In this document: piece by piece, positions 14,501 through 40,900 of the stretch | Layout of the letters: each line of letters begins with the position of its first letter | Position numbering within the stretch: position 1 is the first letter of the stretch | From: a virus | Reading direction: 5' to 3' (one strand) | Length of the DNA: 40,900 nucleotides | IMG/VR virus record: IMGVR_UViG_3300027833_000099 | Coordinates: 1 to 40,900 of that record | Notes under the pieces: generated by a model | The model's input: the letters and a program-made list of their open reading frames with translations, nothing else | Database searches by the model: none | Told to the model about the DNA's origin: nothing | Made by a program: the position numbers and the translations under genes

Positions 14501-15592
14501 ATAGATGCAATAAGAGATAAAAACAAAACTGAATTAGCAATGATGGATACCAGTCTTGTTAATATAGGTAAAGTATGGAAAAAAAGAGCTTCACTTGCCA
14601 CTCAAACTAATACAGAAGAATTAGCTGATATAAAGACAAGAGAAAAATTAGGTATTATAACAGAATTAGAAGCAAATGCAGAGAGATTAGCTGCTGCAAA
14701 AACTCTTTCTGATGAAATGAATGCTATTGAAGATGCAAGGATAGGTAAAATGAAAGAGGTTTATTCCCAAATCTCTGGAATGATATTAAGTGTATTTAAC
14801 AATATAGCTGAAGCAAGAATAGCAGATTTAGAAACAGATTTTACTACTACATCAGAAAATGAACAAACTAAGTTTGACAGAAAACTTGAAATAGCAGAAG
14901 CAGCAGGACAAGATACTCAAGGAATGGAAGAAGAGCATTCTATGAAAATGTTAGCATTAGAAAGGCAAAAAGAATTTGATATAACAGAAATTAAGAGAAA
15001 GCAGTTTATGATGGAGAAAGCCAATAATGTTGTAATGGCTGTTATTAATGGAGCACAAGCTATTACTAAAGTAACAGCACAAACTGGTATTGGTGCTATT
15101 GCTGCTGCTCCTTTAACATCTGCATTAGTAGCTGCTCAAATAGGAATGATAATGGCACAAAAGTTTGTTGGTGCTAAAGGTGGTATTACTCCTAGTGCAA
15201 CATCAGATGGAACTTTAGAGAAGTTTGCTGCTGGAGGAATGGTTCATGGAAAATCACATGCACAAGGAGGGGAAAAATTTAAAGCAGGAGGTAGAGTTGT
15301 AGAGTTAGAAGGTGGTGAAGCTGTAATCAATAAAAAATCTACAGCAATGTTTAAGACTCAGTTATCTTCTATGAATGTTGCTGGAGGGGGTAAAAAGTTT
15401 GCTTTAGGAGGAATATCTCCTGGTACTAAAACACAAATGGATTCAGCTACAGATGGATGGAAAGCTAAAGATGTTGCTAACTTAATATCTGGTGCTATAA
15501 ATTCACAACAAGTTTTTGTTTCAGAATCAGAAATAACTACTTCACAATCAGTTGTTGAAATCTCTGAAGGTAGAGCTTCATTATTTTCATAA
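11576..15592 (+). CDS. Tail tape measure protein
   Basis: 1338 aa. Residues about 80-280 match the phage minor tail protein / tape measure domain: FEEQMAAVRAISGATDEQF, then ELGRTTVFTAIQVAQLQEEF and LADAGIHGSIAGNALKNVF. A hydrophobic helix follows near residues 480-500 (ALATTGIGLLIVGLGELVAW). Most of the rest is charged coiled coil, as expected of a ruler that sets tail length. The C-terminus has the Gly-rich AAGGMVHGKSHAQGG and VELEGGEAVINKKS motifs frequent at tape-measure ends. By the usual 1.5 Å per residue rule the tail would be roughly 200 nm. It lies after the tip genes, the reverse of the lambda order. Confidence 0.92.
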   Translation: MATETTLYRFKANLKELILLNTKLKEATAQLKLLKSGTAQYAATSKQMSTMTAQMGRTSSAIKKTTASTKRLNSSGIRMVSIFKSASIAIAAAFAFRAIISGIKGVITVFAKFEEQMAAVRAISGATDEQFKELSASAKELGRTTVFTAIQVAQLQEEFARLGFTTPEILAAQDATLDLAAATGESLSSAAAIAGSSLRAYGLEASQVVRVTNVMGASFTGSALNLERFTQSMKFAAPVAKTAGFTIEETSAMLMTLADAGIHGSIAGNALKNVFIRLGDANSSLNKSIGHTVQGLPQLIVELERMKEETFNLTDATTLLDKRSAPAFLILIDNIEKLKLSSDLLNQAEGDINRMASIRLDTLTGDFTLLKSATEGLGIAIGETFNLALRESTTGLTKWVQSLAESDKFLNGVNGTFRALSFLIKGYIARLAIMRITQIATGRSVVSLTRFMQVFQVHLRRGTAAVYAQTIALQGLKVALATTGIGLLIVGLGELVAWLGKTDDSMREAKFNVERLNEAFNDEMKTVKELGTFTEERHDALREMTATYGDLVGMIDLEILSLEELKKVRDIVNSGSGEQVLIDAANNRIKKIEEERNAADAAFIAEIDRLEQTGEAGKKLVKNLNFNPTQQFSQPFNEIKISNNEAIEEQQRRREAMLESKNQEIEDQIKYVEEKQASRDEDIANQAEANGIDLKGQESYRQKERMINLSALEDFRVKTFKEQEVIQSKAKVRLEDLQRARDLLNASQELDKIKAKGDDETTAKYQALYTKMWNNTSKEGKAFYDEFVSQQGTINVKISEFRKFVTNLSKSLTKNGDAFDKSGLSGFKLNKTKDRLKELMDVQIKTINDVLVRQADAADQGYLLKMQQYNDEEELIRTNQESIGIIMGKSNVAQIQADIKANRNKFATLKNMNEDEWNDLMAKTGVKKEELTAVLLKLQGEEDAKLETNLELQSATFDYWENEKLKIAYKTNKRDIDAIRDKNKTELAMMDTSLVNIGKVWKKRASLATQTNTEELADIKTREKLGIITELEANAERLAAAKTLSDEMNAIEDARIGKMKEVYSQISGMILSVFNNIAEARIADLETDFTTTSENEQTKFDRKLEIAEAAGQDTQGMEEEHSMKMLALERQKEFDITEIKRKQFMMEKANNVVMAVINGAQAITKVTAQTGIGAIAAAPLTSALVAAQIGMIMAQKFVGAKGGITPSATSDGTLEKFAAGGMVHGKSHAQGGEKFKAGGRVVELEGGEAVINKKSTAMFKTQLSSMNVAGGGKKFALGGISPGTKTQMDSATDGWKAKDVANLISGAINSQQVFVSESEITTSQSVVEISEGRASLFS

Positions 15593-18362: not shown

Positions 18363-20060
18363 TTATAGCATACTTTGTTGCATTTCCTTAAGATAAGAAT
18401 CATCATCTAAGTTTTCTCCTATCTCACTATAACGACCATTTTTTAAGTTAAACTTAAATGTTGCTTCACCTATTTTTCCAATATGTCTAAACTTTACTTT
18501 CTGAACATAAACATTAGTAAGTTTATTTTTAAAATCCCTATAAACAGTCATTCCATTATCAACTTGATTATAAAAGTTAGCAGAACCAGCTACATCATAA
18601 AGAGTTGGAATTTCGTATTGACCATTATCTTTCTTTTGCATCTTTCTTGGATGTGCTACAAGGAAGATATGAATATCATATTTTTGTTTAAATATAGTTA
18701 GCTTAGTTAAAAATTTATTTATAAAATTAGTTTCATTTTGATTACCAATATTAGCATCTATTTTATTATATGGATCTATTATTAAAGCATTTATACCATG
18801 CCTTCTTATTAGGCCTTTAGCAGTATTTAATATTGAATCAATAGTATATACATCTCCATCAGGTCTAATCCAATGAAAGTGTTGAGATATAAATTCTTTA
18901 GCTGAATGTAATTCATTTTTAGTCATCCTATCATATCTAGTTATTTTTCTAAATGATTTGCCAATTAACTTTTCAGCTAATACTGAAAAATGTAATTGCA
19001 TAGGATAATGTTCTGGGCTAAAAACACCAAACTTCCAATTATGTTTAGCAGACAATCTCATTGCTAGATGTTCTAAAAAATTACTTTTACCATGTGTAGG
19101 GATTCCAGTTATAACAGTTAGTTGTGAGGATGAAAAACTAAATAAACTATCAAAAGATTCATGTTCTACAGTTAAACCTCTCTGTAATCCGTTTTCATAC
19201 AATGTGTCAATATCTACATCAAAATCATTTACATTCAACACTCCTTCCAATGGATAGGTTTGCGAACTTTCTATGCAATATTTAACAGCATCTATATCAT
19301 AGTTTATTAATACATCATTTATATCTTTACATCCTTCAGGATAAAAAACTCTATAGCATATATCTCTACCTATTCTTCTTGATAACTCTTCTTGTAATTT
19401 TTTTCCAGGCTCATCATTATCTACTGCTAAATAAACTTTTTCTAAATTTTCAGGAAAGTCTTTTAAATATTCCATCTTTAAATTAGATGCTCCGTTAGGA
19501 ACAGAAACACAATTTTTAAATCCAGCTTCATAAAAAGCTAATTTATCCATTTCTCCTTCAACTATAATAACATCTTTTTTACCTAATATATCATCCAAAC
19601 CATACATAATCCTTTCAGCATCCTTAACTAATTTAAAGTTTTTAGCAGCATCCCTATATTTTATATTAATTAATTTGCTATCTCTAAAATATTTAAACTG
19701 TATAGTTTTAGCTTCTTTACCTATTTGTGGCATATACTCTTCACCTTCAGCTATTCTATTTTTCATCATAGTTTCAGCAGATATTCCCCTAGAATTAAAC
19801 CATTTTATAAGTTTTTCAGAATAAACTTGATTTACATTTATCTCTTTAGGTAATATAAAAGGTTTTTCTTTCATGTATTTGTTTTGTTTTTTTAAACCTC
19901 CAGCCCATCCACAGTTGTGGCAATTCCAAACTCCTTCATCTATATTAACTGAAAGGCAAGGATCAGATTTCTTTTTTCTATCTTGTGAACATTTAGGACA
20001 TTGTGTTTTTACTTGCCCTGAATTTCTTTTTATCTTTATACCATTTTCATGAAAACTCAT
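18363..20060 (-). CDS. Primase-helicase (T7 gp4 type)
   Basis: 565 aa, combining primase and replicative helicase. N-terminal zinc motif C21-C24...C47-C50 (CPKC, WNCHNC). TOPRIM-like part with VIIVEGEMDKLAF (E168) and LAVDNDEPG (D214, D216). C-terminal RecA/DnaB-type ATPase with Walker A GIPTHGKSN (319-327), a Walker B-like INALIIDPYNK and the LVAHPRKM segment. Together these would prime and unwind the phage fork. One-base overlap with the upstream initiator gene. No DNA polymerase gene is seen here, so the phage probably uses the host polymerase. Family assignment is firm. Confidence 0.92.
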   Translation of the reverse strand: MSFHENGIKIKRNSGQVKTQCPKCSQDRKKKSDPCLSVNIDEGVWNCHNCGWAGGLKKQNKYMKEKPFILPKEINVNQVYSEKLIKWFNSRGISAETMMKNRIAEGEEYMPQIGKEAKTIQFKYFRDSKLINIKYRDAAKNFKLVKDAERIMYGLDDILGKKDVIIVEGEMDKLAFYEAGFKNCVSVPNGASNLKMEYLKDFPENLEKVYLAVDNDEPGKKLQEELSRRIGRDICYRVFYPEGCKDINDVLINYDIDAVKYCIESSQTYPLEGVLNVNDFDVDIDTLYENGLQRGLTVEHESFDSLFSFSSSQLTVITGIPTHGKSNFLEHLAMRLSAKHNWKFGVFSPEHYPMQLHFSVLAEKLIGKSFRKITRYDRMTKNELHSAKEFISQHFHWIRPDGDVYTIDSILNTAKGLIRRHGINALIIDPYNKIDANIGNQNETNFINKFLTKLTIFKQKYDIHIFLVAHPRKMQKKDNGQYEIPTLYDVAGSANFYNQVDNGMTVYRDFKNKLTNVYVQKVKFRHIGKIGEATFKFNLKNGRYSEIGENLDDDSYLKEMQQSML

Positions 20061-20710
20061 TAAAATACCATTCCATCATATTCACCTCCTTGAATTTTGT
20101 TCTTATCTCTTGATGTTTCTTTTATTATTTCATCATCCCAGCAACCTTGATTTAACCAAGTGCCTGGATGTTTTTGATATTGTTTATCAATTATAGATTC
20201 TGAATATATCTTTGCTGCATCTACACATTTAATGCAAACCTCAATCTTTAAGGCCATAAATTTATCATAGCATAACTTCCTGCTTTTCTTTACATTATAG
20301 GCATCCCAAAATTTATTAAATAACACAATCTTTTCTTTTTTAATATTAACTTTTATATTATCATTATCATTTTTGACTACCCCCCCTTGCGATTTTTGAC
20401 CATGGCTAATGATGTTTTTGAGTACCTCTATTTCTTTTATCTTTATTAATCTTTTATCAATCTTATGCTCTACTTTAATTATTGAAATATCAATTAAATT
20501 TAATGCAGATAGTTTATTTATAGATCTGCTAATAGTTCCTTTAGATTTACCATAAAGATTGCCAAAATAATTATTAGTTGCCCAACAATATCCTTTATAA
20601 TTAGTAAGGCAAGTAATCTCTGAATACAATAATTTCTCTAAAGAAGTTAAATCTTTTGAATACCTTACGCTTGAAGGTAATACTGAATAATAGTTTGGTT
20701 TTTCATCCAT
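20060..20710 (-). CDS. Replication initiator-like helix-turn-helix protein
   Basis: 216 aa. Residues 5-70 carry the phage initiator winged-helix pattern: YYSVLPSSVRYSKDLTSLEK, then EITCLTNYKGYCWATNNYF and LYGKSKGTISRSINKLSAL. The C-terminal part (FNKFWDAYNVKKSRK, then HPGTWLNQGCWDDE) is the 'TWLNQ..W' end seen in phage O-like or DnaD/DnaT-like proteins that load helicase. Directly upstream of, and overlapping, the primase-helicase, so it is the best candidate to recognise the origin. It is preceded by a terminator-like hairpin (20741-20802). Confidence 0.75.
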   Translation of the reverse strand: MDEKPNYYSVLPSSVRYSKDLTSLEKLLYSEITCLTNYKGYCWATNNYFGNLYGKSKGTISRSINKLSALNLIDISIIKVEHKIDKRLIKIKEIEVLKNIISHGQKSQGGVVKNDNDNIKVNIKKEKIVLFNKFWDAYNVKKSRKLCYDKFMALKIEVCIKCVDAAKIYSESIIDKQYQKHPGTWLNQGCWDDEIIKETSRDKNKIQGGEYDGMVF

Positions 20711-20740
20711 AGTTTTGTATTAATTTTAATTAAAAAAAAA

Positions 20741-20802
20741 GGGGGAGCTAAAACATTTAATAATATTAATAGTAAATTTCGCCAGTAGTTGGCACTCCCC
20801 CC
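20741..20802 (-). terminator. Terminator or attenuator before the initiator gene
   Basis: On the minus strand the stem GGGGGAG/CTCCCCC (20795-20801 with 20741-20747) is followed by a run of nine T. The 47-nt loop holds a second small hairpin, GCCA/TGGC with a 5-nt loop (20781-20793). It lies between the SSB-like gene and the initiator gene, within an otherwise continuous leftward operon, so it may set the level of replication proteins rather than simply end transcription. Confidence 0.6.
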
Positions 20803-20811
20803 TTTGTTTAT

Positions 20812-21111
20812 TTAGAATGGCAAATCATCTGCATCCCCATTCATCATGCTATCTTTATTGTCTAGTAGGTTTTTAGAGCCACCACTAGCTTTTTTTGGCT
20901 TCCAGGTATCTACATAAGAATAATGAGTTACACCAGTTTCAGAAGGCTCTTTTCTTCTTGAAATAATTAAATTTACCCAACCATCATTATCTAGTTCTTT
21001 AATTTGTTTTAGGAAATCTTCAAGCTTAATGCTTAATTTAAGCTGAGTTCCTCCATTATCAAATGTTTTTTCTTTGATAATCATACCATTTACATACTGT
21101 TTTTCTGTCAT
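20812..21111 (-). CDS. Possible single-stranded DNA-binding protein
   Basis: 99 aa. The last residues, GDADDLPF, match the acidic D-D-x-P-F tip by which bacterial and phage SSBs recruit partners. The front has a short beta-rich core (GGTQLKLSIKLEDFLKQI, then WVNLIISRRKEP, then HYSYVDTWKP) shorter than a standard OB fold, so it may be a divergent or minimal SSB. Position between the DnaA-like gene and the initiator supports a replication role. The call rests mainly on the tail. Confidence 0.45.
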   Translation of the reverse strand: MTEKQYVNGMIIKEKTFDNGGTQLKLSIKLEDFLKQIKELDNDGWVNLIISRRKEPSETGVTHYSYVDTWKPKKASGGSKNLLDNKDSMMNGDADDLPF

Positions 21112-21116
21112 TTTTT

Positions 21117-21521
21117 TTATTTATTAATTAATTTAGTTGTGTTCATTTTTAAAGTCCTTATTGACTTTTGCATTACATCTATCTGCTCCTGCATGTGATC
21201 TATTTTTGCTGCTCTATAACCAGTTGCATACTCATCTTGTACAGCTAGATACATATCTTTATATTTTGGGTAGTATTTTAAATTCCACTTATGATCTTTT
21301 GTGTATTTTAAAACAGAAGCATGATGTCTACCTACTAAAACACCTGCTCTAGTGGCAGAACAACCCTCTTCTCTTAACATAGAGCCTAAAATACTTCTTG
21401 CTATTGCTATTTTATGTTCTCTATTTTTACTTCTAATAGTTTGTCTTGTGAAGCCTGAAACCAATTCTACTATTTTGGTTAAAGCTTCTTCATTACTACT
21501 CATACTTATTTCTTTCATCAC
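21117..21521 (-). CDS. Free-standing DnaA domain IV-like DNA-binding protein
   Basis: 134 aa. Residues about 22-90 follow the DNA-binding C-terminal domain of DnaA: TIRSKNREHKIAIARSI, then a helix (LGSMLREEGCSATRAGVLVG) and GRHHASVLKY, corresponding to the GGRDHSTVLHA signature with RHHAS in place of RDHST. No AAA+ part is present. The C-terminal third is a predicted coiled coil. It may bind phage or host origin sequences or a promoter. It overlaps the upstream gene by 26 bases. I saw no TTATCCACA DnaA box in the window, so its target is unknown. Confidence 0.6.
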   Translation of the reverse strand: MMKEISMSSNEEALTKIVELVSGFTRQTIRSKNREHKIAIARSILGSMLREEGCSATRAGVLVGRHHASVLKYTKDHKWNLKYYPKYKDMYLAVQDEYATGYRAAKIDHMQEQIDVMQKSIRTLKMNTTKLINK

Positions 21522-22029
21522 TTAATTTTCTTGATTGTGTTAATATTTTTTTTGCTCTTTCTATGTTTAAATTTTCTGAAACATAATGTAATGAAGCTAT
21601 AAATCTTTTCTTTTCAGAATTAAAGCTTTTAAATTTTGACACTTCATTATCTAAAACCCTGGCTATCTCTAAACCTACCTCTTTGTAACATAATTGTAAG
21701 TATTTAGTCCTTAATGTTGATGAATGTATCTTTTCTCCTAATAAACCTAAAGAATCCCATTTATTATCTCTGAAGTAAAATATTGGTTTATCACTAAACA
21801 TTTCTTTTGGAATAGCAGATAAAAAATTTATAAAATATTCTATTGGTATATAACCCTCTTTATTTCTAGCTATAATTATATCTCTGTACTTTTGAATATA
21901 GCTGTAATTTTTTCTAGCTTTTTGTTCATTACTTAAACACTCCTCTTTTAAACATCTCTTGATACTGGTCTTTAGGATCTCTAGGCCAGTCGTTCTCCCT
22001 AAGATCCTTGATGATTTTTTCTGCTTCAT
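21496..22029 (-). CDS. Unknown early protein
   Basis: 177 aa, basic and helical, not recognised. The only ATG is at 22029, which makes the gene overlap the preceding one by 101 bases in another frame, an unusually long overlap for this operon. A later non-ATG start is possible. Residues 45-70 (YIQKYRDIIIARNKEGYIPI) and the C-terminus (NIERAKKILTQSRKLSDER) look helical. Context suggests a replication or recombination helper. Confidence 0.45.
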   Translation of the reverse strand: MKQKKSSRILGRTTGLEILKTSIKRCLKEECLSNEQKARKNYSYIQKYRDIIIARNKEGYIPIEYFINFLSAIPKEMFSDKPIFYFRDNKWDSLGLLGEKIHSSTLRTKYLQLCYKEVGLEIARVLDNEVSKFKSFNSEKKRFIASLHYVSENLNIERAKKILTQSRKLSDERNKYE

Positions 22030-28779: not shown

Positions 28780-29553
28780 ATGAAGAATCATAATAATTTA
28801 ACAGATTCACAAATACATAAGCCAAAAGGCTTTGAAACAGCCAGGAAAAGAAGTGTGTCTACAAAGAACCATCTTAATTCTGTAGAATGGGTTAAATCAA
28901 ACTATAATAGTTCTGTTTTATTAGTTGTTCCTGCTGACAATCAAGGTTATTTGCATCATAAATATTTTTGCCTATATAATAGTAATGATCTAATTAAGTA
29001 TGCTGTTTATTTTAAAGTAACAGCATCAACTGCAATGGCTACTCCTACTGGTTATGGTGGGGTAATAGCTGTAGATTTAACTGCTAGTGGAATAAACTCT
29101 ACTGCAATACAAGTAGGAACAGCATTACAATCTGTTTTAAATGCTCATGCTGATTTTTCTGCTTCAAGAAATGGTGAAACTGGTAATGTTACATTAACTG
29201 GACTAACTACAGCTAGTCCTGCTGTAGATGTAGATGCAGGAATTACTGTAAGCATTACAGATACAGAGGTTGTGAATGAAGTTTTACATACTAATGCTTC
29301 AGGTCATTTAAAATTCACTCCATTTAGTTCAATAATGTCTGGGTTAAATGTTTTATCAGACAAGGCATATACTCACACCCAGTCTGTTTCTGCTACAGTA
29401 TGGGTTGTAACACATGGTTTAGATAAATACGCTAGTGTAACAGTAGTAGATTCAGCAGGAACAGTTGTAATAGGACAAGTGGATTACAACTCTTTAAACC
29501 AAATAACTTTAACATTCAAAGCAACTTTCTCAGGAAAGGCATATTTCAATTAA
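28780..29553 (+). CDS. Virion surface / fibre-like protein
   Basis: 257 aa. N-terminal 50 residues are polar; residues about 75-170 are Thr/Ala/Gly-rich and beta-like. The last 60 residues (THTQSVSATVWVVTHGLDKY, then VDYNSLNQITLTF and SGKAYFN) match a fibre-end module that I know from tail fibres of many phages (W...H.L......V.D..G....g.v.Y.s.n...i.F). First gene of the fibre block. Probably a fibre or spike that docks to its neighbours. Confidence 0.55.
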   Translation: MKNHNNLTDSQIHKPKGFETARKRSVSTKNHLNSVEWVKSNYNSSVLLVVPADNQGYLHHKYFCLYNSNDLIKYAVYFKVTASTAMATPTGYGGVIAVDLTASGINSTAIQVGTALQSVLNAHADFSASRNGETGNVTLTGLTTASPAVDVDAGITVSITDTEVVNEVLHTNASGHLKFTPFSSIMSGLNVLSDKAYTHTQSVSATVWVVTHGLDKYASVTVVDSAGTVVIGQVDYNSLNQITLTFKATFSGKAYFN

Positions 29554-29577: not shown

Positions 29578-31299
29578 ATGGCAATTAAATTTTTACATGA
29601 TCTTGATGTTTCTGGGAACATAGATCTTAATGACAATCAAGCACTTAATATGGTGCTACAACAATTAACAACCAACCCTGCTACAGTAGTGGAGGGTAAA
29701 ATTTTCCAAAACACTACTTCAGATAAAGTTTATGTAGGTCTAAATGGCTCTTGGGTTGAGTTATCATCTGCAATAGGAGATATTACAGAAGTAATTGGTG
29801 GTAACAACATTGATGTTTCAGGTGGTACTAGTGGTGCTGCTACTGTAAACCTTGATAGTGCTACAATTAGTGCAATTAGTGCTAACACATCAAAAACTGG
29901 AATTACTAGTGGTCAAGCTTCAGCTATAACAGCTAACACATCTAAAACTGGCATAACAACTGGTCAAGCAAATGCAATTAGTGCAAATACTGCTAAAACT
30001 GGTATTACTGGTTCACAAGCAACTGCAATAAGTAATAATACTGCTAAAACTGGTATTACTTCTGCTCAAGCAAGTGCTATAACTGCAAATACAGCTAAAG
30101 AAACAGATGTAAATCACAATGTTTCTACTGATTTAAGTGCTACAGCGACTGCAACTTCATTAACTATAGAATCTTCAGATGGAGATAATGCTTCACTTCC
30201 AGCAGCTACAACTTCTGCTTGGGGTGCAATGACTGATGAACAAGCTGCTGCTGTAATAGCAAATACTTCTAAGACTGGTATTACTTCAGGACAAGCTTCA
30301 GCTATAACTGCTAATACTGCTAAGACTGGAATTTCAAGTGGTCAGGCTTCTGCAATTACTGCAAATACTGCAAAAACTGGTATAACTTCAGGACAAGCTA
30401 GTGCAATTACTGCGAATACTGCTAAAACTGGTATTAGTGCTGCTAATATTAGTGCTATTGAAGCAAATACTGCAAAGGCAACTGATGTTAATCATAATGT
30501 TACTACAAATTTATCTTGTGCAAGTAGCACAACTAGTAGAGTTATAGCATCTTCTGATGGTACTGATGCTACTATTCCAGTAGCAACAACATCTGTATCT
30601 GGTGTTATGTCTGCTGCTCAAGTAACTACTTTAAATGGAAAAGCTCCAAAAGCTTCTCCAACATTTACTGGAAACCCTAGTGCTCCAACACAAACAGCAG
30701 GAAATAATACTACAAGATTGGCTACAACTGCTTTTGTATCTACTGCTGTTTCTAATTTAGTAGGTGGTGCTCCAGGTGCTTTAGATACTTTAAATGAATT
30801 AGCTGCTGCAATAGGAGATGATGCTTCTTATGCAAGTGGAATTACAACTGCTTTAGGAAATAAAGCTAATACAGCTTCTCCAACATTTACTGGAACAGTA
30901 AGTGGTATAACTAAAGAAATGGTTGGACTAGGAAGTGTGGCAAATATTGCAGTAAGTGGATCAAATACTGGTGATGAAGTAAATGCAAGTGTAACTGTAA
31001 AAGGTGTTGTTGAATTAGCTACAGATGCTGAAGCTTTAGCTGGAACAGATACTTCAAGATATGTAACTCCTAAACATTTAGCTAATAGAACTTATACTGC
31101 TGAAATTGGTGGTGCTACATCTATAACTGTAACTCATAATTTAGGCACAAGAGCTGTAATGGTTCAAATGTATGATACTTCATCTTATGAAACTATATAT
31201 GCTCAAGTAACTAGAACTTCTACTTCAGCAGTAAGAGTTGATTTTAATTCAGCTCCAGCAAGTGCAGATGTAACAATAATGATTTCTAAAATACAATAA
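29578..31299 (+). CDS. Tail fibre with 17-residue repeats
   Basis: 573 aa. Residues 1-100 form a head region. Eight copies of a 17-residue unit (ANTAKTGITSGQASAIT type) lie in two sets of four, at about 102-169 and 228-295, each set followed by a matching linker (TDVNHNV, then SSDG, then ATTS). Next come fibre-shaft segments typical of trimeric phage fibres: KASPTFTGNPSAPTQ, NNTTRLATTAFV, and a second SPTFTGTVSG near 434-443. The last 65 residues (THNLGTRAVMVQMYD) are a tip module akin to that of the upstream gene. Confidence 0.8.
   Translation: MAIKFLHDLDVSGNIDLNDNQALNMVLQQLTTNPATVVEGKIFQNTTSDKVYVGLNGSWVELSSAIGDITEVIGGNNIDVSGGTSGAATVNLDSATISAISANTSKTGITSGQASAITANTSKTGITTGQANAISANTAKTGITGSQATAISNNTAKTGITSAQASAITANTAKETDVNHNVSTDLSATATATSLTIESSDGDNASLPAATTSAWGAMTDEQAAAVIANTSKTGITSGQASAITANTAKTGISSGQASAITANTAKTGITSGQASAITANTAKTGISAANISAIEANTAKATDVNHNVTTNLSCASSTTSRVIASSDGTDATIPVATTSVSGVMSAAQVTTLNGKAPKASPTFTGNPSAPTQTAGNNTTRLATTAFVSTAVSNLVGGAPGALDTLNELAAAIGDDASYASGITTALGNKANTASPTFTGTVSGITKEMVGLGSVANIAVSGSNTGDEVNASVTVKGVVELATDAEALAGTDTSRYVTPKHLANRTYTAEIGGATSITVTHNLGTRAVMVQMYDTSSYETIYAQVTRTSTSAVRVDFNSAPASADVTIMISKIQ
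29881..30480 (+). repeat. Two blocks of 51-bp tandem repeats in the fibre gene
   Basis: Coding repeats of 17 codons, four per block, with the blocks and their linkers themselves duplicated (about 378 bp apart). Codon choice differs between copies, so the repeats are old or under selection at protein level. Such shafts can vary in length by recombination. Confidence 0.8.
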
Positions 31300-35210: not shown

Positions 35211-35342
35211 ATGGCAAAAAAGAAGAAGCTTAACAGTAAAAATCCTAAATACTTACCAAAAGAAAAAGTTAAAGAATATAAAAAGATAGTTGTCAAGGAG
35301 GTAAAGGGATGTAAAATAACTTTAATATGGGAAAAAGACTAA
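35211..35342 (+). CDS. Very basic small protein
   Basis: 43 aa from ATG 35211; an upstream start at 35151 would run inside the holin gene. About one third lysine (MAKKKKLNSKNPKYLPKEK), ending VKGCKITLIWEKD. May bind nucleic acid. It overlaps the next gene by 16 bases. Confidence 0.45.
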   Translation: MAKKKKLNSKNPKYLPKEKVKEYKKIVVKEVKGCKITLIWEKD

Positions 35343-36412
35343 GATTATCAGATAAAGAAGTAGATTTAATTTATCAGCATAGAGCTGGAGATTTAGAAAA
35401 CCTAAATTATAACCTTTCGCACAATTCAGCATTAGATGATCATTTACTTGAAAGAGGAATTGATAGAAAAGATGTTGTTAGTGTAAAGCATTGGCAAAAC
35501 ATGGGTGGTGAATTAAGGTTTTCAGTAGTTACTAAGACAAGCATTGTTGATGAAAAAAATGTATTTAGTAATGTATTAAAACTGATAGAAGATAATGCTC
35601 CAGAATATCCAAAAATAAAACATAAACCTGGTAAACATTTATTGGTTATAAATCCTGCTGATGTTCATATAGGTAAATATGCTAATGCAAAAGAAACTGG
35701 GGATGAATACAACATGGATATAGCTGTAGCAAGGGTTTTAAGTGGTGTTAGTGGGCTTATAAATAAAGCTAAAGGTTTTGGTGTTGAAAGAGTGCTTTTT
35801 TGTATTGGTAATGATATTCTCCATACAGACAATGTTATGTCAAGTACGACAAAAGGGACTTATCAGGACACAGATGGAAAATGGTGGGAACATTATGAAA
35901 TTGCTTTGCAAGTTTATGTTCATTGTGTAGAAATGTTAAGAGAAGTTGCTCCAGTAGATTGTGTTCACTCTATGAGTAATCATGATTATCAAAGTGGATT
36001 TCATTTAGCTCATGCTTTAAAATCTTGGTTTAGAAAAGCTGATGATGTTTCTGTAGATTGTGGAGTTGCAAATCGTAAGTATTACAAATATGGAAGTAAT
36101 TTAATAGGCCTAGAACATGGAGATGGTGCTAAAATGGATAAACTACCCTTGTTAATGGCATCAGAAAAACCTTTACTTTGGTCTGAAACTACTCATAGGT
36201 ACTGGTATTTACATCATCTTCATCACAAGATCAAGCATAAATGGTTAGATGCAAAGGATTTTATAGGGGTTACAGTAGAATATATGAGAAGCCCATCTGC
36301 TAGTGATTCATGGCACTCTGGTAAAGGCTTTACTGGAGTACCAAAAGCAGTAGAAGGCTTTTTACACGATAAAGAAAGTGGTCAAGTTGCCAGATTTGTT
36401 CATTATTTTTAA
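35327..36412 (+). CDS. Metallophosphoesterase-like protein
   Basis: 361 aa. Calcineurin-type metal ligands are visible in order: NPADVHIG (D-x-H, about 108-115), GNDILH (162-167), SNHDYQ (213-218), EHGDGAK (about 264-270) and HHLHHK (H-x-H, about 294-299). The N-terminal 90 residues form a separate small domain (KEVDLIYQHRAGDLENLNY). Such proteins occur in phages of several hosts; the substrate could be nucleic acid or a nucleotide second messenger. It is the last gene of the late operon and is followed by a terminator. Confidence 0.7.
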   Translation: MGKRLRLSDKEVDLIYQHRAGDLENLNYNLSHNSALDDHLLERGIDRKDVVSVKHWQNMGGELRFSVVTKTSIVDEKNVFSNVLKLIEDNAPEYPKIKHKPGKHLLVINPADVHIGKYANAKETGDEYNMDIAVARVLSGVSGLINKAKGFGVERVLFCIGNDILHTDNVMSSTTKGTYQDTDGKWWEHYEIALQVYVHCVEMLREVAPVDCVHSMSNHDYQSGFHLAHALKSWFRKADDVSVDCGVANRKYYKYGSNLIGLEHGDGAKMDKLPLLMASEKPLLWSETTHRYWYLHHLHHKIKHKWLDAKDFIGVTVEYMRSPSASDSWHSGKGFTGVPKAVEGFLHDKESGQVARFVHYF

Positions 36413-36453
36413 TAATATATCACAATTTACTTTTTTATTTAAAAAAATTGTTG

Positions 36454-36472
36454 TTATATTGTTTTAGTTTTG
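36454..36472 (+). promoter_or_regulatory. Promoter-like boxes directly before a terminator
   Basis: TTATATTG (36454-36461) and TAGTTTTG (36465-36472, exact TAnnTTTG) lie in the same orientation just upstream of the hairpin at 36487-36521. No gene starts between them. A transcript from here would be only some 40-55 nt long, so a small RNA is possible. Confidence 0.35.
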
Positions 36473-36486
36473 TTTTAGTTGTAAAA

Positions 36487-36521
36487 AAGAGGAGGGGGGT
36501 TCATGATACCCTCCTTTTCTG
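36487..36521 (+). terminator. Intrinsic terminator after the late operon
   Basis: Stem AGGAGGG/CCCTCCT (36490-36496 with 36509-36515) extended by A/T pairs, 12-nt loop, followed by TTTTCTG and TTTTCTG. The repeat cluster begins eleven bases further on. Confidence 0.75.
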
Positions 36522-36531
36522 TTTTCTGCCT

Positions 36532-36636
36532 AATTGGTAACAACTTTTCTCTTAATATTTTTTTATACTGAATTGGTAACAGTTTTTCTCTTAATTGGTA
36601 ATGGATCTGCTCTTAATTGGTAACAGATTTGCTCTT
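36532..36636 (+). repeat. Iteron cluster A: AATTGGTA-N9-CTCTT, four copies
   Basis: Units of 22 bp start at 36532, 36571, 36593 and 36615; the last three are back to back. Each has AATTGGTA, nine variable bases and CTCTT. The fixed 22-bp step equals two helical turns, so one protein could bind the same DNA face repeatedly. The half motif AATTGGTA is kept best. No open frame crosses the cluster. Confidence 0.85.
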
Positions 36637-36806
36637 AACCTTTTTTTTTAAAAAATTTTTCATTTGATTTCTTCCTGGTGCAGCATGTTGCATGTAATTT
36701 CAGCTAATTTCATGCTATTATATTTTATTGCATATAATTTGTTTATATCAAATATTAATGCTTATATGTAATTACAACAAAACTAAATTAATCAAAAAAA
36801 ATTATT
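36637..36806 (+). other. A+T-rich gap before the first accessory operon
   Basis: Holds a T9 tract, direct copies of AATTTCA, and a 28-codon hydrophobic frame (36685-36771) that may be chance. CATATAATTTG (near 36741-36751) resembles the word TATATAATTTG near 39809-39819, which also precedes an accessory operon, so it may be the promoter. The gene at 36807 has the A-rich leader AACTAAATTAATC. Confidence 0.45.
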
Positions 36807-37304
36807 ATGAAAAAGTATGAAGTTAAAGTAAAAAGTGATTATGAATCAGGATTCTCCTGGGATATGTATATAGATTATGTAAAAGAATTAGCAATAGAAT
36901 TAGATATTGCAGTACATAATAGTAATAGGAGAATGAGTAACTTATTGCCTAGTAAAAAAATAGATACTGATGGTTATCATAAGTCATGTATAGTAGGATG
37001 TAAAGGTTATAGTCAATCAGACTGGGATGATTATAAGATATATTATAATGAAGAAAGTAAAGAATTGGAATTACTAAAAGAACAAATATCCAGGGCCTTT
37101 ACGCATAAACATGATTATTGGATAGAAACAATAGAAACTTTGGAATCAGGACATTCTAAGGTTATAGATAGTTGTGTTATAAGTATTGACTGGATAGAGT
37201 TTCCTGATGAAAATGATATTAAGGATGCAGTAAGAGAATCAGAAATTTACTTTGGTCTGAAACTTATTGATAATGATTTATTAACTTGGAACTTTGCTAT
37301 ATGA
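36807..37304 (+). CDS. Unknown accessory protein
   Basis: 165 aa, not recognised. Starts MKKYEVKVKSDYESGF; contains ELAIELDIAVHNSNRRM, KIDTDGYHKSCIVGCKGY and an acidic C-terminus (FPDENDIKDAVRES). First gene of a three- to five-gene unit of small proteins. Stop overlaps the next ATG as ATGA. Confidence 0.55.
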   Translation: MKKYEVKVKSDYESGFSWDMYIDYVKELAIELDIAVHNSNRRMSNLLPSKKIDTDGYHKSCIVGCKGYSQSDWDDYKIYYNEESKELELLKEQISRAFTHKHDYWIETIETLESGHSKVIDSCVISIDWIEFPDENDIKDAVRESEIYFGLKLIDNDLLTWNFAI

Positions 37305-37561
37305 AAAAGTTAATAGATAAAGTAGATGATGGTTTTAATTATTTTCATTCTGGAATACTTCAGGAATTAACTACTGATAAAAAGTTTTATGTTCAGGCCT
37401 TCATGGATTATATAGAATACCTGGAGAGTAGAACAAAGGAATTAGCTGAAGAAGTTAGGGCCAAAACTATTACTCCTACTAAGTGTATTGAATGTAATAA
37501 TATTAATACGCATGATACAGATTCTTTTGGATTCTGTACTGAATGCTTAAACCACTTATAA
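37301..37561 (+). CDS. Small protein with C-terminal zinc ribbon
   Basis: 86 aa from ATG 37301 (ATGA overlap with the previous stop; an upstream TTG at 37286 is rejected). Helical N-terminal part, then a C-terminal Cys4 ribbon: KCIECNN, 11 residues, GFCTECLNHL. No family recognised. Confidence 0.55.
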   Translation: MKKLIDKVDDGFNYFHSGILQELTTDKKFYVQAFMDYIEYLESRTKELAEEVRAKTITPTKCIECNNINTHDTDSFGFCTECLNHL

Positions 37562-37562
37562 T

Positions 37563-37808
37563 ATGGTATATTGCAGTATAACTAATGAAGAAATGTATGA
37601 TGGATGGTACAATGAGTGTTCAGGAGCATACTTTAAATATGAAAAAGATTATTTAAAACATATTGACGACATTATTAAAGAAGAAAAAGAATTTCTTATA
37701 GATGAATTAGAATTAGATTATCCCAAAACAAAAGATGATAAAATTGAATTTGCATATAACCACTTAGGATGCTACTGGTCAGAATGGCTGGAAGATGAAG
37801 AAGAATAA
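37563..37808 (+). CDS. Small acidic accessory protein
   Basis: 81 aa, strongly acidic. The front (YCSITNEEMYDGWY, then GAYFKYEKDYLKHI) resembles small phage and bacterial proteins with 'C..t...m.eGy......yf.~~~~l', possibly a short Cys-containing domain with C4, C19 and C70. Function unknown. Begins one base after the previous gene. Confidence 0.5.
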   Translation: MVYCSITNEEMYDGWYNECSGAYFKYEKDYLKHIDDIIKEEKEFLIDELELDYPKTKDDKIEFAYNHLGCYWSEWLEDEEE

Positions 37809-37828
37809 ATAACTAAAAATAAAACAAA

Positions 37829-37996
37829 ATGAAAAAAGAAATTGCAGTAAACCAAATAGTTTTGCCGACTTATTATATAATAAATGAAGATGGCAGTATA
37901 ACTTATGATCTTGAAATGATGGCTGAAGAGTTTGAAAATGAATTATCTAAATTAGATGATAGTGTAGTAATAATGTGTTCAGTAGAAACTAAATAA
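37829..37996 (+). CDS. Short acidic protein
   Basis: 55 aa, too short for routine gene calling. ATG 37829 follows the leader AACTAAAAATAAAACAAA, the same kind that precedes the other accessory genes. Sequence runs IVLPTYYIINEDGSITYDL and then an acidic helix (MMAEEFENELSKLDD), ending VVIMCSVETK. Not recognised. Confidence 0.5.
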   Translation: MKKEIAVNQIVLPTYYIINEDGSITYDLEMMAEEFENELSKLDDSVVIMCSVETK

Positions 37997-38019
37997 AAAC
38001 TAAATAAAAAAAATAATAT

Positions 38020-38082
38020 ATGATAACATACTTAATATTCGTAATAATTCTAGCAATATGGGAATTTTTAAAACAAAATTAA
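38020..38082 (+). CDS. Tiny membrane peptide
   Basis: 20 aa, almost all one hydrophobic helix (ITYLIFVIILAIWEF) with a basic end. It has the usual A-rich leader and ends seven bases before a strong terminator, which suggests that it is the last gene of the unit. Possibly a toxin-like or envelope peptide; could also be chance. Confidence 0.35.
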   Translation: MITYLIFVIILAIWEFLKQN

Positions 38083-38089
38083 TCAAGAG

Positions 38090-38117
38090 AGTAACCAGAA
38101 ATGGTTACTTTTTTTTT
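38090..38117 (+). terminator. Intrinsic terminator of accessory unit 1
   Basis: Stem AGTAACC/GGTTACT (38090-38096 with 38103-38109), 6-nt loop, then nine T. Cluster B starts six bases later. Confidence 0.85.
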
Positions 38118-38122
38118 GGCCT

Positions 38123-38180
38123 AATTGGTACAGATGTAAATTATTTACAATAAGGGGAAATTGGTAGTGTTTCTTCTCTT
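38123..38180 (+). repeat. Iteron cluster B
   Basis: AATTGGTA at 38123 (half unit, no CTCTT) and a full AATTGGTA-N9-CTCTT unit at 38159-38180, 36 bp apart. Same bipartite motif as clusters A and C. The remaining gap to 38314 is A+T-rich with no gene seen. Confidence 0.7.
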
Positions 38181-38314
38181 AAGTAAGATAGGCCTTATAA
38201 AATTAGCAGAATTTTAAAGTCAATAGCTACTAGGTTAAAAATGCACCTTATTAACATATAACAAAAAACTTTTTAATAAATAAAACTTTTTTATGCTTAT
38301 ATTAAAAATATTTT

Positions 38315-38322
38315 TATCTTTG
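38315..38322 (+). promoter_or_regulatory. TATCTTTG -7 box of accessory unit 2
   Basis: Exact TAnnTTTG match, followed by the leader ACAAAACTAAATTTAAC and ATG at 38356, giving a 5' leader of about 25-30 nt. Confidence 0.55.
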
Positions 38323-38355
38323 ACAAAACTAAATTTAACTAAAAACAAAAAAATC

Positions 38356-39249
38356 ATGAGAAAAGTATTAAAAAACAATTCTGAAGCAATACACTACTTT
38401 GCTAACGAAGTACAAGAATCAGGCCAAAACCAAACCAGGAGCATATTTTTTAATGGTAACAAACTTTATAGCTATGGTTACCACTACTTATTAGGTTTAA
38501 GGCTAAACAATGGAACTTTAATTATTAATGATGATGGTTATAGTGTATCAACTGGTAGGCATATTAGTATATTAAGAAGTGCAGCTACTCACAAAAAAGT
38601 TTTTTGTTTATCTGAAATACATTTAGATAATATGTTTAAAAATATTGTTATCAATAACCAAAAAATGAAAAAAGCCTGGAAACATAAAATATTCTATGCT
38701 AGAAGTATTGTTCGTAATTTTGAAAAGTATGAAGAGTTTTTAAGCTATTGTAAAAAAAATAGAACTACTATAAAAGAAATATCAAGAGAGTTTCCTGGTG
38801 TTATAGCTGATAAAAGAAGTAGTTATTATAAAGATATGAAGTCTATATATTTAAGTGTTAAAGAAGATCTTCCTTTATTAGAAAAAACTGATGCAGCAGA
38901 AGCAGCAATTAGACTAAAAAAATTAGCTGAAAAAAATAAAAAAAATCAGATAAAATGGAGAGCAGATAGCAATTTTACTTTTTATGGTGGAATGTTTAAC
39001 GAACCAGCACTTTTAAGGATTTGTAAGGCATCCAAATATATTGAGAGTACAAAAGGTGTAAAATTACCAATAGATGTATGTAAACACTTTTTAAACCTAT
39101 TATTTTCAGGAGAGAATTTAGTTAATAGTAGGCTAGATAATTATGTAGTTAATTTTTATGATGGTAAAACTTTAAAAATTAATTGCCATACCTTTTTACA
39201 AAAAGAATTAGAAAATATACTAGTATTAATCAATAACTTAAAAAAATAA
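38356..39249 (+). CDS. Accessory protein of a widespread phage family, function unknown
   Basis: 297 aa from ATG 38356; an upstream in-frame ATG at 38293 precedes the promoter box and is unlikely. The N-terminal 75 residues (RSIFFNGNKLYSYGYHYLLG, then LIINDDGYSVSTGRHISIL) show a pattern that I know from many phage and some bacterial proteins: F....YSYG...., a strand, then N...YS.sT..H. The rest is helical and very basic (KYEEFLSYCKKNRTTIKEIS; KKLAEKNKKNQIKWRADS). Largest gene of the accessory region and so a candidate to bind the nearby repeats, though nothing in it is a clear DNA-binding motif. Confidence 0.55.
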   Translation: MRKVLKNNSEAIHYFANEVQESGQNQTRSIFFNGNKLYSYGYHYLLGLRLNNGTLIINDDGYSVSTGRHISILRSAATHKKVFCLSEIHLDNMFKNIVINNQKMKKAWKHKIFYARSIVRNFEKYEEFLSYCKKNRTTIKEISREFPGVIADKRSSYYKDMKSIYLSVKEDLPLLEKTDAAEAAIRLKKLAEKNKKNQIKWRADSNFTFYGGMFNEPALLRICKASKYIESTKGVKLPIDVCKHFLNLLFSGENLVNSRLDNYVVNFYDGKTLKINCHTFLQKELENILVLINNLKK

Positions 39250-39251
39250 TC

Positions 39252-39554
39252 ATGAAAAAATCAATAATTAAATTAGAAATAGATATATTCTTTAATAGAA
39301 ATGCTACTAGCCCATTGATACCTAATAAAATAGCACAAATTAAAGATTATCTAAGTATAAATTCCCCTATCTATTATAATTCTGTAAAGTTTGTAGGAGG
39401 GTATAAAATTGAAGAGCAAAACCAAAGTGTTGCTAATTTTGTAATTTTTACTGATAACCAGGAGGAAATAAAAAAGCAATTTATAACAATTTTTAAAAGC
39501 TATCCTTTATATATTAGTTTTAATAATAAAATACCTGAATTAATAAAAAATTAA
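39252..39554 (+). CDS. Unknown small accessory protein
   Basis: 100 aa, alternating strands and helices (IIKLEIDIFFN, then IAQIKDYLSINSPIYYNSVKF, then FVIFTDNQEEIKKQF), similar in outline to a ferredoxin-like fold. Starts two bases after the previous stop and ends before a terminator. Not recognised. Confidence 0.5.
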   Translation: MKKSIIKLEIDIFFNRNATSPLIPNKIAQIKDYLSINSPIYYNSVKFVGGYKIEEQNQSVANFVIFTDNQEEIKKQFITIFKSYPLYISFNNKIPELIKN

Positions 39555-39569
39555 TTTAAAAAAAAAATT

Positions 39570-39601
39570 AAGGCCTGGAATAATATCTAGGCCTTTTTTT
39601 T
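39570..39601 (+). terminator. Intrinsic terminator of accessory unit 2
   Basis: Stem AAGGCCT/AGGCCTT (39570-39576 with 39589-39595), 12-nt loop, then a T-run to 39601. The next bases, GTCT, lead straight into repeat cluster C. Confidence 0.8.
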
Positions 39602-39605
39602 GTCT

Positions 39606-39667
39606 AATTGGTAGCTAATTGGTAGCTAATTGGTAGCTAATTGGTAATTGGTAGGTACTTTACTCTT
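39606..39667 (+). repeat. Iteron cluster C
   Basis: AATTGGTAGCT three times in 11-bp steps (39606, 39617, 39628), then AATTGGTA at 39639 and an overlapping one at 39646. The last is a full AATTGGTA-N9-CTCTT unit (39646-39667). The 11-bp step equals half of the 22-bp step in cluster A, so the same helical face is kept. From 39668 to 39858 the sequence is poly-A rich with no gene; TATATAATTTG near 39809-39819 may be the next promoter. Confidence 0.85.
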
Positions 39668-39858
39668 AATAGAAATAAAGCAAAAAAATTTTTACAAAAA
39701 AAATAGTAGGCTAGAGTAAAAATGAAAAAATAAAATCAGATCCTAATAATTATTGAAAAAATAACCAGGAAAAAAAAAGTTAAAAAAAATTAGGATAGTC
39801 AAAAAATATATATAATTTGCAGCCAACTAAAAACAAAAAATTAATTTAAAAAAAAATC

Positions 39859-39957
39859 ATGCAAGAAAAAAAAGAAACCAAAATTGAGAAAATATTTAAT
39901 TTATTTTATTTATTATCTTTACCAGTAGCAGTACTAATTTATTTTATAAACCTTTAA
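39859..39957 (+). CDS. Small membrane peptide
   Basis: 32 aa: charged front (MQEKKETKIEK) and one membrane helix (IFNLFYLLSLPVAVLIYFI). Leader AAAAAAAAATC before ATG 39859 and the same leader type before the next gene nine bases on. Third single-helix peptide of the window. Confidence 0.4.
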   Translation: MQEKKETKIEKIFNLFYLLSLPVAVLIYFINL

Positions 39958-39966
39958 AAAAAAATC

Positions 39967-40191
39967 ATGAAAAAATCAAAATCACCAGGAATCAGAATCA
40001 AGAGAGCAGTTACAGAACTAAAAGCAAAATCCAACGGGTACGAAATAGGGCCCTTTATACTAGAGCAAATTATAATCCAGGGAATGCAACAATTAGAGGA
40101 GGATTTAAAGGAGGGGAACCTGGATAGGTCTATAATTGCTCCAGGTTTATACCAGGAAACACTTAATATTTTAAAAAATCACATTCAATAA
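39967..40191 (+). CDS. Small accessory protein of unlike composition
   Basis: 74 aa, basic front (KKSKSPGIRIKRAVTELK), then helices (FILEQIIIQGMQQLEEDL). Uses GGG, CCC, CAG and ACG codons (for example AACGGGTACG, AGGGCCC) that are scarce in the main phage genes, so it probably came from elsewhere. Not recognised. Confidence 0.5.
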   Translation: MKKSKSPGIRIKRAVTELKAKSNGYEIGPFILEQIIIQGMQQLEEDLKEGNLDRSIIAPGLYQETLNILKNHIQ

Positions 40192-40219
40192 TTAATCAAT
40201 AAAACTAAAAAAAACTATC

Positions 40220-40567
40220 ATGAAAAATTCAATAAAAGCAGAACTAAAGGAGTACATCCTAGAGGGAATCAAAGATTTAAACCTAGATAATCTAACCAGT
40301 AAACCAGGCCGACTAGATGCAAACGAATTGCACCAGTCTTTATTTAACGAGGATTATTATATAATCGGATATTTTAACGCTCAACAATGGCTAGATAAGC
40401 ACTTCATTGACACATTTGAAGCCCTAGAAGATATTAAGGAATACGAAGAGTTTAATTTTGGCCAGGCTAAACATTATACAAACGCTGAAAGCATGGTCAA
40501 TATGTTGGTGTATATATACGGAGAGGAATTAATACACGAATGTTACAAGGAACTAGAACTATTATAA
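40220..40567 (+). CDS. Accessory protein of a widespread uncharacterised family
   Basis: 115 aa. The middle (ELHQSLFNEDYYIIGYFNAQ, QWLDKH, IKEYEEFNFGQAK) and end (NAESMVNMLVYIYGEEL) follow a pattern that I know from small uncharacterised phage and bacterial proteins: 'lf..dyyiig...a..wl......fea...v..ye..nfGe......~~e~~vNm~vyi~geel'. Composition matches the preceding gene. Leader AACTAAAAAAAACTATC before the ATG. Followed by a terminator and the CTCCAG array. Confidence 0.6.
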   Translation: MKNSIKAELKEYILEGIKDLNLDNLTSKPGRLDANELHQSLFNEDYYIIGYFNAQQWLDKHFIDTFEALEDIKEYEEFNFGQAKHYTNAESMVNMLVYIYGEELIHECYKELELL

Positions 40568-40592
40568 TCTAAACACATAAACCAGTTAAAAG

Positions 40593-40621
40593 GGCTTTAT
40601 TAATTTAAAGCCTTTTTTTTT
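40593..40621 (+). terminator. Intrinsic terminator of accessory unit 3
   Basis: Stem GGCTTTA/TAAAGCC (40593-40599 with 40606-40612), 6-nt loop, then nine T and GTCTTATTTT. The CTCCAG array begins ten bases later, as the other repeat clusters do after their terminators. Confidence 0.85.
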
Positions 40622-40631
40622 GTCTTATTTT

Positions 40632-40840
40632 CTCCAGCCTATGCTCCAGGCCTTGAGTCTGATAAAATAGCTTAGAACGGCTAAAAATACGCTCCAGGTG
40701 TTGCTCCTGGTATTGCTCCAGGTGTTGCTCCTGGTGTTTCTGGTTATATGCTCCAGGATACTCTCCAGGATACTCTCCAGGATACTCTCCAGTTAACGCT
40801 CCAGTACACGCTCCAGTTAACGCTCCAGTACACGCTCCAG
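40632..40840. repeat. 12-bp-phased CTCCAG array
   Basis: CTCCAG (or CTCCTG) starts at 40632, 40644, 40692, 40704, 40716, 40728, then after one shifted unit at 40751, 40763, 40775, 40787, 40799, 40811, 40823 and 40835, nearly always 12 bp apart. The six bases between are GGTGTT-like, GATACT, TTAACG or TACACG. One plus-strand frame stays open through the array (TAA at 40682 to TGA at window position 141 after joining), reading APGV and LQDT/LQYT repeats, with ATG only at 40748. A coding role is possible, but binding sites seem likelier. Confidence 0.8.
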
Positions 40841-40900
40841 GCCGTTAGTTTATTAAACCTTATAACGGCTGCACTAGGTCAAAAGGCCTATTATATAACA
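40737..40900. repeat. Right copy of the terminal direct repeat
   Basis: Equals window positions 1-140 except for two extra GATACTCTCCAG units (24 bp). Supports a circular or terminally redundant genome of about 40.76 kb, with the junction lying in the CTCCAG array. Confidence 0.9.
40841..40869. promoter_or_regulatory. Nested inverted repeat at the array end
   Basis: GCCGTTA (40841-40847) and TAACGGC (40863-40869) pair perfectly; inside lies GTTTATTAAAC (40848-40858), itself an inverted repeat. A similar AACGGCT word lies at 40676-40682 after another CTCCAGGCC. The same structure is at 81-109. No T-run, so a binding or origin structure is likelier than a terminator. Confidence 0.5.

Follow-up and report, generated by a model that had tools for sequence, protein, structure and literature searches.

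The window analysed here is the whole of the 40,900-base virus contig IMGVR_UViG_3300027833_000099 from IMG/VR, a phage genome that carries three intergenic clusters (A, B and C) of a two-part repeat unit, AATTGGTA-N9-CTCTT. The last 126 bases of the contig are identical to positions 15–140, and the genome is therefore circular or terminally redundant. PHROG and Pfam scans of its proteins recognised a large terminase, portal, head protease, primase-helicase, Rep-like initiator and exonuclease. The terminase is nearest, among named phages, to that of Flavobacterium phage 11b (52% identity) and then to that of Cellulophaga phage phi10:1 (45.5%), and the virus is an uncultured phage, probably of Flavobacteriia, with a presumed flavobacterial host. 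The preliminary description of this DNA reported no integrase; none was recognised among the proteins scanned, several open reading frames (ORFs), including large tail genes, lying outside the scan. No tRNA genes were found in the window. The features around the clusters, together with three proteins considered below, are listed in Table 1.

Table 1 Repeat units, neighbouring features and proteins considered in the window
Feature	Position	Strand	Remarks
Exonuclease gene	35327..36412	+	PHROG 704; anchor for relatives
Intrinsic terminator T_A, after exonuclease gene	36488..36520	+	Stem 36491–36517
Unit A1	36532..36553	+	Exact match; begins 14 nt past T-run
Unit A2	36571..36592	+	Exact match
Unit A3	36593..36614	+	Exact match; tandem 22-bp step; additional 22-bp copy here in G001
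Unit A4	36615..36636	+	Exact match
Promoter-like sequence, operon A (AATTTG ... TTATATG)	36736..36768	+	Sequence likeness
First gene of accessory operon A, 165 aa	36807..37304	+	ORF
Terminator T_B	38088..38117	+	Stem 38088–38111, then T-run
Half unit B0, AATTGGTA without CTCTT	38123..38130	+	Word match
Unit B1	38159..38180	+	Exact match
Promoter-like -7, operon B, TATCTTTGAC	38315..38324	+	Sequence likeness
First gene of operon B, 297 aa	38356..39249	+	From ATG at 38356; PHROG 7247 (unknown function)
Terminator T_C	39570..39601	+	Stem 39570–39595, then T-run
AATTGGTA half-unit array	39606..39646	+	Word matches at 39606, 39617, 39628, 39639; 11-bp steps
Unit C1	39646..39667	+	Exact match; CTCTT half absent in G001
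Promoter-like sequence, operon C, ATATAATTTG	39810..39819	+	Sequence likeness
First gene of operon C, 32-aa peptide with hydrophobic stretch	39859..39957	+	Similar peptides in G001, G008, G010, G007
Rep-like initiator (HTH_36)	20060..20710	-	No co-variation with word
DnaA-IV, stand-alone DnaA domain IV protein, 134 aa	21117..21521	-	Long C-terminal helix; candidate reader
177-aa protein, unknown function	21496..22029	-	Gene overlaps that of DnaA-IV; best word co-variation

All six full units that had been described were recovered as exact matches on the + strand, always with a nine-base spacer; the - strand of the window holds none, and the full units are confined to 36532–39667. In 300 dinucleotide shuffles the exact unit occurred 0.003 times on average and once at most, and with up to two mismatches there were 12 matches over both strands of the window against 2.97 expected. 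The word AATTGGTA by itself was found 14 times over both strands (shuffle mean 3.3, maximum 10), all 14 copies being on the + strand; 11 of them lie between ORFs of at least 45 aa and three (3565, 23923 and 23985) inside such ORFs. The half units of cluster C were said to step by 11 bp, which is true of the array up to its final step, a 7-bp step to C1. Spacings of 11 and 22 bp hold in parts of A and C, and fail at the first step of A (39 bp), at the step of B (36 bp) and at that last step of C. The argument drawn from them, that the motif is kept on one helical face, did not survive comparison with relatives, where 36 hand-listed steps showed no helical phase (p 0.17) and a separate set of 28 steps, including two artefact 1-bp steps, gave resultants of 0.07 and 0.09. 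Helical phasing was thus rejected as a conserved feature.

Each cluster lies directly past a terminator and upstream of an accessory operon, and precedes a promoter-like sequence, with 169, 174 and 190 nt between the last unit and the start codon. One further terminator of the window, at 40588–40617, has no AATTGGTA after it. A sequence similar to the promoter-like sequence of operon A is found at cluster A of relatives G004, G005, G008 and G012 (related records are denoted by G or L and a number); we take it to be a Bacteroidetes-type promoter, of consensus TTTG / TAnnTTTG, and by the same consensus TATCTTTGAC is presumably the -7 element of operon B and ATATAATTTG the promoter of operon C. 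The 165-aa protein of operon A had no PHROG or Pfam match. For the 297-aa protein of operon B no relatives were found in the viral contigs or phage records searched, and diverged forms exist in other relative records. Some smaller elements share these intergenic regions. A second short repeat, TAATTTCAGC, stands at 36695–36715 between cluster A and the promoter-like sequence, with one 10-bp copy more in G001. Within 36445–36520 a promoter-like TTATATTG occurs about 27 bases before T_A, likewise after the exonuclease in relatives, and could yield a very short RNA. A 20-aa micropeptide with one hydrophobic stretch is encoded at 38020–38082, directly before T_B, with similar ones in G001, G009 and G007; this and the 32-aa peptide of operon C are both below the ORF cut-off of 60 aa.

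The motif had been proposed for a search in related phages, its absence from all of them being named as a refutation; it is present in relatives and thus not peculiar to the window. A tandem-unit pattern search of IMG/VR, from which records very near the window were possibly excluded, matched records L007 and L008, both with the same arrangement. The alignment of the window with L007 (G001) showed one 22-bp copy more in cluster A and an identical layout in B; cluster C of G001 has four copies, all of them half units without CTCTT. Using the exonuclease as anchor, we took the best 80 of 596 loci. Past the exonuclease stop codon, 15 of the 17 closest loci were inspected by eye, and all 15 had repeated two-part units with a first word of their own; the other two, L019 and L020, are contigs of L007 and L008. 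Of the 63 loci that are more distant, 26 were inspected in the same way, and none showed units. At exonuclease identities of at least 78%, 16 of 17 loci had more repeated 8-mers past the gene than their shuffles did (p up to 0.02), compared with 7 of 61 more distant loci. Because some of the close loci are near-duplicates (L019/L020; L022–L024), the independent lineages number fewer than 17. The sole exonuclease relative found in the genome collection, at 69% identity, is on a Flavobacteriales contig of a metagenome-assembled genome; no units were seen by eye after its exonuclease, and its assembly had no 16S match. None of the titles found in literature searches describes these units, which is weak evidence of their absence from print.

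Among relatives with at least 78% exonuclease identity, the first word of the unit varies by lineage, the forms including AATTGGTA, CAGTTGGTA, ATGTACGCT, TTGTACGG, ATGGCCTGA and AGTACACTG. By record, the words are AATTGGTA (G000, G001, G017), A[AG]TTGGTA (G016, G009), AAATGTACG[CG]T (G004, and G005, whose cluster B has AAAAGTACGCT), AAA[AT]GTACGCT (G012), AAATGCAC and AAATGTACGCT (G008), AATTGTACG[CG] (G003), AAAAGTACG[CG] (G011), AAATGGCCT (G010) and TAGTACACT (G006, G007). The second half, judged by eye, reads CTCTTTA or something close to it, with a spacer whose length varies by about one base, and is only T-rich in G006 and G007. The terminase, portal, head protease, primase-helicase and exonuclease of these relatives are 73–97% identical to those of the window, yet the words differ by lineage. 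We compared the words with one another in a hand-compiled list of 11 records. Mean similarity was 0.90 between clusters within a genome (15 cluster pairs) versus 0.54 between genomes at cluster A (55 pairs), and the pairing of cluster A with its own B or C was matched by none of 10,000 permutations, or by 2 of 5040 with the records collapsed to seven lineages. Each genome thus has nearly the same word throughout, and the word changes together between genomes, as in a multi-site operator. Since clusters A, B and C of one genome otherwise differ in their surroundings, the simplest account is that the word they have in common is maintained by whatever reads all three, and these comparisons indicate that one trans-acting factor per phage very likely reads the clusters.

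The units also keep their orientation and position. In 14 records the strict patterns gave 56 forward matches and none in reverse (two double counts removed), with none in a letter-reversed control. Nearly all units of the relatives are in the accessory region, the exceptions being in G010, G011 and G003. The distance from the last unit to the next start codon had a median of 165 nt (range 1–213; 25 of 26 clusters measurable), the start codon being taken as the first ATG of an ORF of at least 28 aa, which yields some false short values. This similar place relative to the next gene is that of a multi-site operator, and the earlier suggestion of a dispersed regulon is borne out by clusters that stand one per operon head and point with transcription. 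Adjoining a unit at 9693 of G010 (record L158) is a gene resembling a DNA adenine methyltransferase (9798–10616; DPPYW motif, by eye).

The units are likewise close to terminators. A script that searched only upstream of the first unit found a terminator for 19 of the 26 clusters listed, and in 14 of these 19 the first unit begins 4–20 nt past the T-run; it returned none for L032 and L033, in which inspection by eye showed a terminator-like hairpin ahead of the units. Such a layout might be that of a roadblock, in which a bound protein halts RNA polymerase at the end of the preceding operon and backs up the terminator, and the fixed orientation recalls that of the stoperators of Cluster A mycobacteriophages (PMC6550527, PMC9283540). 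We regard this as very unlikely. Compact genomes place neighbours close together anyway. Cluster A of G007, for which no terminator was found, still lies 164 nt from its start codon; the window terminator at 40588–40617 is without units; and in cluster B of G003 and G008 the second half of the first unit falls within the terminator stem, another unit then following. Together these cases moderately favour a coupling of the units to the promoter rather than to the terminator.

On the strength of nearly one word per genome, a word that differs by lineage, and the same place, orientation and similar start-codon distance, we favour, at somewhat better than even confidence, the reading that the units form an oriented multi-copy operator or upstream activating array that heads operons A, B and C and is read by one phage-encoded, sequence-specific protein. 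That protein would act on DNA, at the promoter-like sequences downstream of the units, and would switch the three operons together. The pattern is suggestive of a rapidly changing DNA-binding regulator encoded by the phage, and not of an origin of replication. The preliminary description had offered a multi-site repressor operator as one option; the element is indeed multi-site, and one factor very likely reads it. On repression we only lean that way, either as early shut-off or as a means of keeping out a second phage, since the diversification of the word resembles that of phage immunity operators.

Several observations weigh against this reading. With looser patterns there were 9 reverse-strand matches, all within ORFs, as chance word-only matches would be, and forward matches inside the gene preceding the exonuclease in G004, G005 and G008. 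One strict match, at 9508 of G011, is inside the exonuclease gene. The G010 unit at 9693, matched by a looser pattern, lies between leftward genes, antisense to them and away from the accessory operons. Locus L034 is the one close locus that failed the 8-mer repeat count (p 0.38). The closeness to terminators could equally point to termination, and one reader that changes fast does not account for a second half that stays nearly constant (CTCTTTA type).

A constant half joined to a variable half is the logic of nut sites, and the units could be sites of RNA antitermination. The constant half would then be a boxA for host NusB/S10, and the lineage word would be read in the nascent RNA by a phage antiterminator that carries polymerase through later terminators. 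The units share with lambda nut sites (boxA/boxB) and ribosomal RNA (rRNA) boxA a near-constant and a phage-specific half, near-fixed spacing and orientation with transcription, and differ in the order of the halves. Each of the 56 strict units runs in the direction of the accessory operons, beside terminators and at spacings without helical phase, clusters A and B are followed downstream by T_B and T_C, and many 16S leaders of the flavobacterial order hold, by eye, GTTC[TA]TT[GA]A, which is loosely like CTCTTTA. The likeness to boxA is nevertheless weak: with a matrix built from rRNA leaders, the median rank of the second half was only within the top 11% of local windows, and 8 of 50 units reached the top 5%. 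Without a further promoter to feed it, a unit directly past a terminator would depend on readthrough for its transcription; no Rfam match was obtained in 35300–40900 at E up to 0.5, and no antiterminator was recognised among the proteins scanned. We consider this explanation unlikely. A DNA-level site is preferred over an RNA-level one, not strongly, on the basis of the weak boxA likeness, arrays composed only of first halves (cluster C of G001), the two units overlapping terminator stems in G003 and G008, and the one antisense unit in G010.

Iterons bound by a Rep protein were the other option of the preliminary description. In this explanation the units would be origin iterons bound by Rep or by the DnaA domain IV protein, DnaA-IV, with the extra clusters serving copy control, as extra iteron clusters do in plasmid P1. 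Cluster A indeed has tandem same-strand 22-bp direct repeats like those of Rep iterons and is followed by an A+T-rich run (36639–36661), and genes for both DnaA-IV and Rep are in the replication operon. The units are, however, dispersed one cluster per operon head rather than at a single locus, the three clusters are more than 15 kb from rep, their helical phase is not conserved, and in G008 and G010 cluster A has not retained the A+T-rich run. Nor does Rep track the word: the window and G001 have one and the same word, yet their Rep proteins are only 52% identical. Over 9 genomes the co-variation of Rep with the word was low (rho 0.13, Mantel P 0.21), and its excess in the same-word test was -0.02. 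No short-spaced iterons were found in or around rep, the direct repeats of 20000–21200 being two two-copy families 244 and 332 bp apart. Thus we found neither a single origin beside rep or a kept A+T-rich region, nor an iteron that tracks its initiator, and Rep iterons were rejected as the first choice for want of Rep co-variation and of short-spaced iterons around rep. The GC skew of the window follows gene direction. An origin could be placed equally well at a 12-bp tandem array of the GCTCCAGnnnAC type (40687–40841 and 14–80), in the gap upstream of the terminase genes, and taken together we judge the origin explanation quite unlikely. The corresponding gap in G007 and in G003 is occupied by arrays peculiar to each; the 12-bp array is a second lineage-specific array and a candidate origin or packaging site.

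Returning to the favoured operator or activating array, we looked for its reader among the phage proteins. The earlier statement that no repressor is visible is doubtful, the window encoding at 21117–21521 the stand-alone DnaA-IV protein with a helix-turn-helix. DnaA-IV matched PF08299 at E 9.2e-6 and 26.0 bits, under the gathering score of 31.5, and its profile matched DnaA in the PDB at E 7.7e-6. Its AlphaFold model had a pLDDT (predicted local distance difference test) of 90.5, and the best Foldseek match was the DnaA DNA-binding domain on DNA (E 2.0e-3; template modelling score by target 0.82, and 0.82–0.84 over such structures), with no match at E <=0.001. The protein has the domain IV fold with a GRDH-type recognition motif, which reads GRHH, GKHH, NRHH, NRNH or GRDH in relatives. 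Between genomes of the same word its mean identity was 0.56 versus 0.46 to other words, fourth of 33 proteins, and for the helix-turn-helix part, a region of our choosing, the values were 0.69 and 0.51. Like DnaA boxes (TTATNCACA), the units are asymmetric direct repeats with a candidate reader of the domain IV fold; they differ in having words unlike TTATNCACA, in standing before accessory operons and in the candidate being a 134-aa protein without an AAA+ domain.

The 177-aa protein encoded by the overlapping gene had the highest word co-variation of 39 proteins (rho 0.57, P 0.003; Mantel test, 9 genomes). It had no fold match at E <=0.001 and no sequence match in the PDB. A search of 14 relatives that lack evident units did not recover it; that set had no positive genome, so the negative by itself shows nothing, and the protein may simply be clade-specific. 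Neither it nor DnaA-IV had a match in 50,697 phage records (tblastn, E up to 0.01). In the Mantel test DnaA-IV came seventh (rho 0.37, P 0.0125), outranked by the 177-aa protein, by two large proteins of the tail region and by others; the co-variation is not significant after correction for 39 proteins. A sliding-window control placed the best six DnaA-IV windows at ranks 67–90 of 1177, the top 25 windows belonging to only two proteins, of 1338 aa (11576–15592) and 257 aa (28780–29553), so that the co-variation of DnaA-IV is only suggestive. DnaA-IV is also present in 12 of the 14 relatives without evident units and is therefore not dedicated to the units. These results speak against the candidate, and it is with rather less than even confidence that we propose DnaA-IV, perhaps with the overlapping 177-aa protein, as the leading candidate for the reader.

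If DnaA-IV were the reader, the domain that reads DnaA boxes would be in use as a specificity-switching regulator. A further step, which we put forward as doubtful, is that, in a phage lineage with no recognised integrase, a stand-alone DnaA box-binding domain became a fast-diverging transcription regulator, with its own word-reader pair in each phage, and that the clusters are silencer or enhancer arrays by which early accessory operons are switched off, also those of a second phage that enters the cell. Related phages would then form specificity groups resembling immunity groups, in phages not known to be temperate. The relatives offer a natural series of sites and candidate readers, which predicts which uncultured phages can and cannot regulate each other.

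Among known systems, the units resemble mycobacteriophage stoperators in logic, and we claim membership in none. The sites of Cluster A repressors (L5, Bxb1, TipsytheTRex) are asymmetric, short, intergenic and mostly in one orientation relative to transcription, and their motif diverges between related phages together with the repressor (PMC6550527, PMC9283540). The units are likewise asymmetric and oriented. Stoperators are single 13-bp sites, more than 20 in number and genome-wide, whereas the units are bipartite, of 22–25 bp, and in tight clusters at three operon heads. The many genome-wide sites bound by an immunity repressor have no counterpart here, and none of the proteins scanned was recognised as a repressor of that family. 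The start-associated sequences (SAS) and extended SAS (ESAS) of Cluster K and the 17-bp repeats of Cluster O mycobacteriophages are more remote. They are described as repeated elements of unknown function, SAS only, and Cluster O repeats mostly, occurring in one part of the genome (PMC3203893, PMC4351075), as the units do. SAS, however, precede start codons by 3–7 bp, against about 170 bp for the units, and Cluster O sites are palindromic, unlike the asymmetric units.

Two other repeats or conserved sequences were noted elsewhere in the window. A noncoding ATTCACACTAGATTTTCGGATTTTC at 439–463, ahead of ORF 560, recurs almost intact in G004, G005, G007, G010 and G012 and in altered form in G003. 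Repeats of 51 bp occupy 29871–30476 within a 573-aa ORF (29578–31299).

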